From a virus: 21,286 bases of DNA. The notes under the pieces were generated by a model, which was not told where the DNA came from, did not search any database, and was given only the letters and a program-made list of their open reading frames with translations. The stretch's first letter is position 1. Each line of letters begins with the position of its first letter. A program made the position numbers and the translations under genes. Shown in pieces: positions 10,161 through 14,649 of this stretch. The stretch lies in IMG/VR virus record IMGVR_UViG_3300042691_022215, positions 1 through 21,286 of that record, one strand, 5' to 3'.

Positions 10161-10236
10161 TGGCCCGTCCTGAGCGATTCGAACGCCCGACATGCGAGGT
10201 AGAAGCTCGCTGCTCTATCCACTGAGCTAAAGACGG
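10161..10236 (-). tRNA. tRNA-Arg (UCU anticodon)
   Basis: Reading the minus strand, a full cloverleaf of 76 nt forms: acceptor CCGTCTT/AGGACGG (one G-U pair), D arm GCTC-AGTGGATA-GAGC, anticodon arm GCGAG-CTTCTAC-CTCGC with anticodon TCT, a 5-nt variable loop, T arm GGGCG-TTCGAAT-CGCTC (one G-U pair), discriminator G and an encoded CCA. A20 in the D loop is the known arginine identity base. It would read AGA and AGG, which the late genes use. It lies four bases past the holin stop, on the opposite strand, at the end of the leftward region. A chromosomal tRNA used as an attachment site is an alternative, but phage genes flank it on both sides and no integrase is seen. Confidence 0.93.
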
Positions 10237-10415: not shown

Positions 10416-10584
10416 TGTCATCTCGGTTTTCTGCCCGGGTAGCCACCAAACCCTAGTCTGGACTTTGCTACGAGAACCCGTCGGGGTGTTGAGGGCTGGG
10501 ATACGGCACCCTTGCATTGCCCTGGCGAGTCAGCCAACCAGCTAAATACTCTACACAGTTCAGGCGGCCAAGACCTGAAACCCT

Positions 10585-10678
10585 CATATCAGCAGGCAGG
10601 ACTCGAAACCTGCTATGACAACCTCACCGGACTGGCTACCGGCTTTTGGGCGTGTCCTTCCACGCTGCTGCTGATATG
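10585..10678 (-). ncRNA. cloverleaf-like four-way junction, possible decayed tRNA
   Basis: On the minus strand an exact 11-bp pair (CATATCAGCAG with CTGCTGATATG) closes a 94-base element. Inside, in order, are a two-base linker, GCGTG-GAAGGA-CACGC (D-arm place), GCCGG-TAGCCAGT-CCGGT (anticodon-arm place), a 12-base variable stretch, and GCAGG-TTTCGAGT-CCTGC (T-arm place) directly abutting the acceptor strand, as in a tRNA. The T loop carries TTCGAGT plus one extra T. The eight-base loops, long acceptor and poor D loop mean it is not a normal tRNA; a decayed tRNA or a tRNA-like RNA fits best. Confidence 0.4.
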
Positions 10679-10754
10679 AAGGTGCTAGCTACCGCAAGAC
10701 CGGCTAGCGCGGCCTTTGTTGCCAATGCGGCTTTGGTGGATGTGTTTAGTTTAC

Positions 10755-13179: not shown

Positions 13180-13418
13180 CATCCAAGACCCTCGAAGGCT
13201 GGGCAGACGATGGCGGTCTAGGCGATGTTTTCATCGATGCCATCAGCAAACTAGACGACATGGCCCGAGCTGGGCTTGTGTGGCACAAAGAGCGCACTGA
13301 GCTAGTGGCCGATGCTACAGACTATGCATGTCAGGTCTTGTGCGGGATGACTGCTCAGGACAAACAGAAGGCTTGGGCCTGGGCTCAGGCAGTACAAAAG
13401 CAGGCTGAAGTCTGTTAA
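13086..13418 (+). CDS. C-terminal part of the same frameshifted early gene
   Basis: The open frame starts at ATG 13086, but no ribosome binding site precedes it and the first 14 residues (MAHKHSGRDVPVQ) are encoded inside the upstream frame. The meaningful part starts with DGEDAASLIQAACETIAVAS at 13125, a helical protein with GWADDGGLGDVFIDAISKLDDMARAG and a Trp/Ala-rich end. It fits as the continuation of the gene starting at 13000. If translated alone it would be a 110-aa protein. Function unknown; small helical proteins of this sort are common in early operons of Pseudomonas and Burkholderia phages. Confidence 0.6.
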   Translation: MAHKHSGRDVPVQDGEDAASLIQAACETIAVASKTLEGWADDGGLGDVFIDAISKLDDMARAGLVWHKERTELVADATDYACQVLCGMTAQDKQKAWAWAQAVQKQAEVC

Positions 13419-13600
13419 AATCACACCTGCAATCGCAATGATTGCAACCGAGCTAGCTGTGAATCTTGGCCGACAAGCAGCTAGTACATCGTCACAGGCT
13501 TTCTGTTCACTGGCGAGGGGGTTGTGAGAAATCACACCCGCTGAACCTGTGGGCGGGGGCCCAAGAGCCCCCTCACCAGTGGGCAGGAAGGTTGTTTCCT
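13419..13600 (+). promoter_or_regulatory. structured intergenic region, possible RNA element
   Basis: These 182 bases hold several stems: TGCAATC/GATTGCA (13428-13446), CTAGCTG/CAGCTAG (13453-13459 with 13478-13484), the competing CTGTGA/TCACAG (13457-13462 with 13492-13497), and a three-way junction closed by a 14-bp stem with one mismatch (13508-13521 with 13568-13581) enclosing TGTGA-GAAA-TCACA with a GNRA-type loop (13523-13536) and CCCGC/GCGGG (13537-13541 with 13553-13557). AAATCACACC is repeated at 13418 and 13529. It precedes the HNH gene. A cis-acting RNA, a small RNA or an intron-like remnant are all possible. Confidence 0.5.
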
Positions 13601-13951
13601 ATGGCAATTTCAGCCGCAAAACGCGCTCGCGTTTATGCAAGGGATCGTTTCATTTGCCAATATTGTGGGAATTGCCCAGATTTGTCTGAGCTGACAATAG
13701 ACCACGTTATCTCAAAGATAAGCGGCGGTCGCAATGGCGATGACAACCTAAAAACATGTTGCAGGACATGCAACATAACAAAAGGAAAGCGGCCAATTGA
13801 ATGGCTGCGAAAGCACTTTTCCATTGCATCAAGCAAATATGCAGGGCTAATGAGCGTGCAGCAGTGGGATGCTCTAGTTAATGCTGGCGCTGAATTTGGC
13901 GAAATCCATCGCTATGTCTTTTGGTTTGAGCGCATGGAGGCTGGCAAATGA
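13601..13951 (+). CDS. HNH endonuclease
   Basis: 116 aa from ATG 13601, with AGGAAGG ten bases upstream. The frame is open back to 13466, but that extra stretch overlaps the structured region and has no HNH-like sequence. The core is typical: ARDRFICQYCG (zinc Cys19, Cys22), LTIDHVISKISGG (Asp34-His35, metal and catalytic), DDNLKTCCRTCNITKG (Asn49, Cys54, Cys57), with the second His of HNH replaced as is common in this subgroup. Such enzymes nick or cut DNA with a divalent metal. In phages they serve as homing, packaging or recombination nucleases. Lying next to a structured stretch and at a split gene, a homing role is possible; the next gene overlaps its stop. Confidence 0.88.
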   Translation: MAISAAKRARVYARDRFICQYCGNCPDLSELTIDHVISKISGGRNGDDNLKTCCRTCNITKGKRPIEWLRKHFSIASSKYAGLMSVQQWDALVNAGAEFGEIHRYVFWFERMEAGK

Positions 13952-14649
13952 TCCACTCGTTTGACGTTGATATCGCCACTGAACACGGCGTCGAGTGCGC
14001 CATCATGCTGGCGAACATTGAGTTCTGGGTAGCCAAGAACAAGGCTAACCGCAAGCACTTCCACAAGGGACGGTACTGGACCTACAACAGCATCAAGGCA
14101 TGGGCAGAGCTGTTTCCGTACTGGAGTTCTGACAAGGTGCGAAGGGTTCTAGAAAGGCTAGAAGAGCGCGGTCTTGTCGTCTCCGACAACTTCAATTCTT
14201 CTGGCTATGACCGCACAAAGTGGTACACGTTGTCTTGTGATTCTTGCCAAATCGATTTGGCAAATTTGCCAAATGGAAGTGGCGAATCTGCCAAATCACT
14301 AATAAGAACAGATAGTAAACCAGATACAAAAAGCGCAACCAAAGACCGAGCCACCTCCGGTGACTCTGAGCAGTACGAAGAGAGCTTTCTAGAGTTCTGG
14401 AAAAACTGGCCTACTAACAAGCGCAAAGGCTCTAAGCCTCAATGTGGAGCGTTCTGGAAGAGGAAGAAGCTACATCTCAAGACAAAACAAATTCTTGAGC
14501 ATGTGAACCTGATGAAGAATAGCCACGACTGGACGAAGGACAACGGACAGTACATGCCAGCACCACTAACCTACCTTCACCAGATGCGCTGGGAAGGTGC
14601 CGAACCTACTCAAGACCAAAAAGAGAACAAGTGGGCTGGTGCGATATGA
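13948..14649 (+). CDS. replication initiator, lambda O-like layout
   Basis: 233 aa; ATG overlaps the HNH stop (ATGA). Residues 1-95 form a winged helix (WTYNSIKAWAELFPYWSSDK, VRRVLERLEERGLVVSDNF), the DNA-binding domain. Residues 96-138 are a polar linker whose DNA carries the iteron array. Residues 145-222 match the C-terminal domain of many phage initiators (FLEFWKNWPTNKRKGSKPQC, FWKRKKL, then MPAPLTYLHQMRWEG), the region that recruits the helicase or its loader. Order and layout equal lambda O: a DNA-binding head, an origin inside the gene, a protein-contact tail. A DnaB-like helicase gene follows two genes downstream. The assignment as initiator is strong; the exact family name is less sure. 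Confidence 0.83.
   Translation: MIHSFDVDIATEHGVECAIMLANIEFWVAKNKANRKHFHKGRYWTYNSIKAWAELFPYWSSDKVRRVLERLEERGLVVSDNFNSSGYDRTKWYTLSCDSCQIDLANLPNGSGESAKSLIRTDSKPDTKSATKDRATSGDSEQYEESFLEFWKNWPTNKRKGSKPQCGAFWKRKKLHLKTKQILEHVNLMKNSHDWTKDNGQYMPAPLTYLHQMRWEGAEPTQDQKENKWAGAI
14244..14335 (+). other. ori: replication origin: iterons and A+T-rich stretch inside the initiator gene
   Basis: TTGCCAAAT stands at 14244-14252 and 14266-14274, CTGCCAAAT at 14288-14296, an exact 22-bp period, with an inverted copy ATTTGGCAA at 14255-14263. Directly after the last repeat lies an A-rich stretch (14297-14335) that could open as the unwinding element. Position inside the initiator gene, at the linker between its two domains, is that of lambda ori in gene O. 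Confidence 0.72.

Follow-up and report, generated by a model that had tools for sequence, protein, structure and literature searches.

To our knowledge, hardly any structured RNAs that regulate phage replication operons in cis have been described. Lambdoid phages carry regulatory RNAs at comparable positions (OOP, C4, and P4 CI), and the C4 antisense RNA is a structured phage RNA located 5′ of a translationally coupled operon. In T-even phages, the account in PMC2988022 describes homing endonuclease genes whose ribosome-binding sites (RBS) are sequestered by RNA structure, with I-TevI, I-TevII, I-TevIII, segB, and mobE as the relevant hairpins. The putRNA of phage HK022 is a further cis-acting structured RNA of early phage transcripts, about 70 nt long and made of two stem-loops with no pseudoknot mentioned, which suppresses termination via RNA polymerase (PMC9378689).

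Here we analyze a leader in IMG/VR virus record IMGVR_UViG_3300042691_022215 (positions 1–21,286); the window is this whole stretch of 21,286 nt. Its structural genes are P22-like, among them a stabilisation-protein gene at 551 whose relatives carry that annotation; the phage is a P22-like podovirus. The genes considered below are:

11730 (position): Cro-like regulator gene
13601–13951, + strand: HNH endonuclease gene, 116 aa (Pfam HNH_5, 3e-11; PHROG 2118, 2.7e-21)
13948–14649, + strand: replication initiation protein gene (PHROG 11233, 4.9e-37), with its own Shine-Dalgarno sequence (SD) GGAGG
Downstream in the window, after the HNH and initiator genes: DnaB-like helicase gene and helicase-methylase fusion gene

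The HNH ORF is free-standing and has no other domain. Its stop overlaps the initiator start (13948) as ATGA, an arrangement also seen in the contig L211, Piluca, Vibrio phages, and BcepMigl. We lean, by a modest degree, toward reading 13419–13600 as a structured, cis-acting 5′ leader that keeps the HNH–initiator operon translationally off and is probably a divergent relative of the RNA family described below.

Like C4 (RF01695), this region is a structured RNA before a translationally coupled operon, but it gives no C4 match at E ≤ 10, and nothing near the HNH SD forms a target pair comparable to the C4 a/b sites. With the T4-type hairpins (PMC2988022) it shares a very stable 5′ structure that hides an endonuclease SD in a polycistronic transcript; it differs in its three-way junction, its likely pseudoknots, the initiator gene downstream, and the unrelated phage, and a sigma-70-like internal promoter was not seen. 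The likeness to putRNA extends to being a cis-acting structured RNA in early phage transcripts (PMC9378689).

A long closing stem buries the HNH Shine-Dalgarno sequence

The region 13419–13602 folds at –87.2 kcal/mol (z –6.2), and 13492–13596 folds at –63.2 kcal/mol (z = –6.65), better than all dinucleotide shuffles. The 91 nt of 13500–13590 form the strongest fold for GC content in the window, ranking 1 of 6056 segments on both strands. The elements are:

13453–13484, + strand: P1 hairpin CTAGCTG/CAGCTAG, 7 bp, with an 18-nt loop containing TCTTGGCC; in the MFE structure, topology like P1 of the family (alignments A5/A6)
13464–13471, + strand: candidate pseudoknot 1 (PK1) 5′ strand TCTTGGCC, in the P1 loop; 6 bp (TCTTGG/CCAAGA) and, beyond a 1-nt bulge, 2 bp more
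13493–13498, + strand: candidate pseudoknot 2 (PK2) 5′ strand CACAGG, immediately next to the closing stem; 6 Watson-Crick pairs with 13546–13551
13499–13523, + strand: closing stem 5′ arm; 24 pairs, one mismatch, with 13566–13590
13524–13535, + strand: extra junction hairpin GTGA-GAAA-TCAC; the family’s second junction hairpin is on the other side
13537–13557, + strand: hairpin A, CCCGC/GCGGG, loop TGAACCTGTGG, from folding
13546–13551, + strand: candidate PK2 3′ strand CCTGTG, within the loop of hairpin A
13558–13566, + strand: candidate PK1 3′ strand GGCCCAAGA, immediately 3′ of hairpin A, complementary to 13464–13471
13566–13590, + strand: closing stem 3′ arm, including most of the SD; from folding and flank shuffles
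13585–13591, + strand: SD AGGAAGG of the HNH gene; 6 of 7 bases paired in the closing stem

Base 13566 belongs both to PK1 and to the innermost closing-stem pair.

The first-pass annotation had described a 14-bp stem with one mismatch (13508–13521 with 13568–13581) enclosing TGTGA-GAAA-TCACA and CCCGC/GCGGG hairpins in a three-way junction. That stem is present, and the junction, both its hairpins, and the upstream P1 hairpin occur in both the MFE and the centroid structure; the extent of the stem had been underestimated, as it continues to 24 pairs over 25 positions with a single mismatch. The nine further contiguous outward pairs (13499–13507/13582–13590) run through the SD, and an outward extension as long arose in 99 of 200,000 flank shuffles (~5 in 10,000). 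Inverted repeats of at least 14 nt with at most one mismatch and a spacer below 80 number two in the window and none in five Markov-simulated windows. The + strand folds at –63.2 vs. –49.3 for the – strand, and several U-G pairs of the long stem on the + strand would be A-C mismatches on the other, a pattern that fits an RNA better than a DNA palindrome.

At each of three transcript lengths, the probability that the SD bases 13585–13590 are unpaired is below 0.01. Opening the HNH RBS costs 20.4 kcal/mol, against a background of 10.3 ± 3.3 at random positions; this is the highest cost among the 20 gene starts listed (others ≤14.0) and lies in the top 0.25% of 400 random positions. Such burial is not common to the HNH relatives tested, which rules it out as a general trait of the HNH family.

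In the mechanism that we propose, the P1 hairpin, hairpin A, and the 24-pair closing stem would form in the nascent + strand transcript, and two loop–strand pseudoknots would tie them together. The foot of the closing stem would pair with the HNH SD and keep HNH translation low until the stem is opened. Candidate openers are a protein of the phage or its host, a small ligand, and cutting of the long stem by RNase III. Because the two genes overlap at ATGA, a block of HNH initiation should lower initiator translation as well, probably, despite the initiator’s own GGAGG. By analogy with the T-even endonuclease genes, translational repression by SD masking would be the simplest mechanism.

A different switch had been suggested earlier, in which CTAGCTG/CAGCTAG and CTGTGA/TCACAG exclude each other. 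Both pairings exist on paper, but neither frees the SD and the first is part of the leader MFE structure, and this switch is unsupported. Two candidate loop–strand pseudoknots, based on complementarities missed at that stage (CACAGG 13493–13498 with CCTGTG 13546–13551, and TCTTGGCC with GGCCCAAGA), are better supported. Several other candidates were discarded. An anti-sequestor, AACAGAAGGCTTGGGCC at 13363–13379 (the end of the upstream ORF) against 13495–13507 plus 13558–13565, is not significant when every position is considered, being equaled by 5.8% of segments, and its pairing is not present in the folding ensemble. The repeat of AAATCACACC at 13418 and 13529 is real, as annotated, but without significance (its number of matches is reached in 30 of 100 shuffles), and as an iteron it is at chance level; TGTGA-N4-TCACA as a CRP-like site is likewise at chance level.

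Searches for relatives of the element

An Rfam search of the window element, at the gathering threshold and at E ≤ 10, returned nothing credible, only chance miRNA and snoRNA look-alikes, the miRNA ones being long stems. This agrees with its original description as a structured, probably regulatory leader RNA without a known class. No conserved protein frame, the finding that had been held to count against such an RNA, runs through 13466–13600: the frame matched no PHROG family, and HNH relatives begin at the position equivalent to ATG 13601.

Searches of phages, plasmids, E. coli, and viral contigs yielded no DNA homologue of the element, and hence none with a broken stem, and the HNH protein, the upstream ORF, and the MarR-like protein as baits recovered no relatives in viral contigs. 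A covariance model (CM) built from the window alone, R1, finds only itself; a 13-bit match in the locus L258 lies antisense within a terminase-like gene and is attributed to chance. With homologues lacking there both for the element and for the HNH gene together with its leader, the leaders of other HNH–initiator operons were compared instead.

A double-pseudoknot leader family precedes phage replication genes

Leaders of Burkholderia phages (alignment A3) contain a conserved structured RNA, with compensatory changes at 6 pairs among 4 sequences. The CM built from these four leaders, R2, gives hits at E about 1e-15 to leaders of unrelated phage contigs from metagenomes, the model E-values being rough and many of the relatives being metagenomic contigs without hosts. 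The matches lie just 5′ of replication initiator genes or of small genes preceding them (L029, L025, and L047) and, in L084, 5′ of a helicase-methylase gene. The improved model R3 adds many further members, and Rfam 15 gives nothing for family members. The alignment A6 holds all 25 matches, from 24 phage loci, including:

L246, 1697–1835; L284, 1597–1734; L285, 1515–1654; L286, 1499–1636
L029, 2426–2563; L025, 2376–2511; L044, 2581–2716; L084, 5877–6008
L124, 5872–6008; L126, 3649–3783; L160, 1474–1611 and 3810–3941
L287 (phage JC1), 1410–1501: a divergent form, additional to the 25 matches

The architecture runs from a P1 hairpin (loop CUUGGNNG) through a 4-nt strand, a closing stem of ~18 pairs, and hairpin A to a CNNCCAA strand; hairpin B and the 3′ arm come next, and a U-tract ends the element. 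In PK1 the P1 loop pairs with the strand immediately 3′ of hairpin A, with coordinated changes among members (UUGGCGG/CCGCCAA, UUGGCAG/CUGCCAA, UUGGAGG/CCUCCAA, UUGGUCG/CGACCAA, and UUGACGG/CCGUCAA). In PK2 it is the strand adjoining the closing stem that pairs with the loop of hairpin A (GAGU/ACUC, AGGC/GCCU, GGGU/ACCC, CGGU/ACCG, and CAGU/ACUG). The closing stem with its U-tract looks like a transcription terminator.

Across the 25 rows of A6, 95.8% of cells are paired, and 34 of 45 pairs show compensatory changes; many members are mutually related, so these counts should not be taken as independent events. The covariation score reaches 0.555, compared with at most 0.108 in slid controls, which retain the relatedness. 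Both pseudoknots were first recognized in 8 rows; over the 25 rows, 17 of them added, they are upheld at 99.4% and 93.3%. Since the pseudoknot pairs are absent from the models, in which their columns are treated as unpaired, they are not a product of fitting. This covariation-supported, double-pseudoknot, three-way-junction leader family is new relative to Rfam 15 and is a finding in its own right. The occurrence of such an RNA in Burkholderia phages and metagenomic contigs, before initiator and helicase-methylase genes, makes pre-replication sensing by phages testable.

In Lessievirus phages the slot between a small HTH-type gene and the initiator (L246 2061–2504, compared with L284, L285, L286, and L287) varies in content. 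It holds an HNH gene in BcepMigl, nothing in BcepIL02 and DC1 (the small gene is followed by the initiator), and, in CSP3 and JC1, another ORF of 128 aa with a helicase(-like) annotation. The leader was found in all five phages, in a diverged form in JC1. Because it is present where the HNH gene is missing, the leader is more aptly attributed to the replication operon than to the HNH gene. From these gene orders HNH looks optional at the replication-operon site, and the presence/absence pattern is suggestive of the downstream HNH protein being a putative homing endonuclease.

The window element compared with the family

The window shares several features with the family. Its replication operon (HNH and initiator, PHROG 11233) sits 3′ of the leader, as replication genes do in family members, and its closing stem of 24 pairs exceeds the 16 or more expected of the family. 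The P1 loop contains CUUGGCC, carrying the family’s UUGG core in the UUGG/CCAA PK1, and its strand can pair just 3′ of hairpin A; as a complementarity, this has a chance of about 1% alone. The 6-bp CACAGG/CCTGTG pairing with the hairpin A loop corresponds to PK2, also as a complementarity, with a chance of 1–3% alone. Both arose jointly in 0.02–0.06% of trials, computed after the fact, in which the unpaired segments were shuffled or swapped for random window segments.

A topology descriptor, tuned to the family and written after the window was seen, recovers 22 of 23 members tested and fires on the + strand of the window at 13499–13590 only. In 1200 simulated windows it gave one hit with a closing stem of at least 16 pairs and none reaching the window’s values; at the same stem length in 2.2 Mb of loci, it found the members, JC1, and the loci L096 and L121 (both on the – strand).

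The window element differs from the family in lacking a U-tract, in its longer P1 loop and PK1 bulge, and in carrying the second junction hairpin on the 5′ rather than the 3′ side. R2 gave nothing at E ≤ 10 on the whole window (unfiltered local scores reached 2.8 bits), and R3 gave no match. After the closing stem GTTGTTTCCTATG follows instead of a U-tract, and a terminator scan finds nothing there. With no CM score, no U-tract, and the hairpin on the other side, the element is not filed as a family member. Divergence of this kind does happen: JC1, of the same genus and locus as members, keeps the topology with a changed PK1 (GCCAAACCG/CGGTTTGGC) and hairpin B lost.

Judged from these sequence features, the window element is a probable divergent relative of the family that would mask an SD and act on translation. 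If so, the same core would have been rewired from termination to translation control. Whether the window element, the 25 matches, and JC1 make up one family gating phage replication operons through interchangeable outputs, termination in most and SD masking here, as in riboswitches, is in our judgment evenly balanced; in such a family the pseudoknotted core would be the sensor of a common signal, either a phage protein or a metabolite.

A hairpin before the start codon was seen in addition. In the window, AGGAA/TTCCT (13585–13600) can pair in a form that excludes the closing stem, and many family leaders can form a similar pre-start hairpin, joining the closing-stem end or U-tract with the SD region (e.g., GGGCTTTTTTTATTGGAAAAAGC). 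Such a hairpin might represent the other state of a switch.

Alternative explanations

The main rival supposes a stand-alone hairpin without kinship to the double-pseudoknot family, which masks the SD and so delays translation of a free-standing, homing-type HNH gene, as for T4 I-TevI, segB, and Aeh1 mobE, with the loop complementarities due to chance. RBS sequestration is described for T-even homing endonuclease genes (PMC2988022), and the extreme SD burial in the window, the optional HNH gene of Lessievirus (in BcepMigl, not in BcepIL02 or DC1), and the lack of a window–family link in the CMs all fit. However, two candidate pseudoknots lie at the family’s exact places, at a joint chance of 2–6 in 10,000 and with the UUGG core in PK1. 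In addition, the T4 RBS is freed by a late promoter 3′ of the 5′ arm, and a scan of the window element for sigma-70-like promoters found none. We regard the stand-alone hairpin as rather unlikely, though it is a serious contender.

A small RNA or antisense regulator transcribed from either strand (C4, OOP, or CI-like), instead of a cis leader, would fit the comparable positions of the lambdoid regulatory RNAs; the – strand also folds well and has a weak terminator-like hairpin at 13447–13427. Promoter-like (sigma-70-like) sites are absent from 13419–13600 on both strands, however, the G-U pairs favor the + strand, C4 is not matched, and the + strand fold runs contiguously into the HNH SD, which makes this reading improbable. 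Very improbable is a DNA-level element, be it an origin, a cruciform, or the binding target of a replication protein or repressor acting as a dimer: the region adjoins the initiator gene and contains palindromes and the repeat AAATCACACCYGC, but the repeat is at chance level and the + strand U-G pairs of the long stem fit RNA. The HNH neighbor and a structured RNA 5′ of its gene had also suggested an intron remnant, to which a group II origin or an HNH-carrying mobile RNA (HEARO/omega-RNA) may be added. This has become scarcely credible, given no Rfam match to group I or II introns or HEARO, a free-standing HNH protein of just 116 aa, and a Lessievirus leader that persists without HNH.

Other structures

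On the – strand of the window, at 10575–10690, a cloverleaf-like fold (z –4.8) is closed by an inverted repeat of 16 bp (10580/10668); the fold includes a T-arm-like GCAGG-TTTCGAGT-CCTGC and lies ~350 nt from tRNA-Arg(tct) at 10161–10236. ARAGORN gives just a poor, different tRNA there at relaxed settings, and there is no Rfam match. In the contigs L211 and L213, the HNH–initiator leader (~2500–2640) contains C4-like complementarities, GGAGT/ACTCC and CCTTGTTC/GAACAAGG, and a short uORF that overlaps the HNH start has its SD overlapped by GAACAAGG. The HNH gene and its leader are common to both contigs, and the sequence farther upstream differs.
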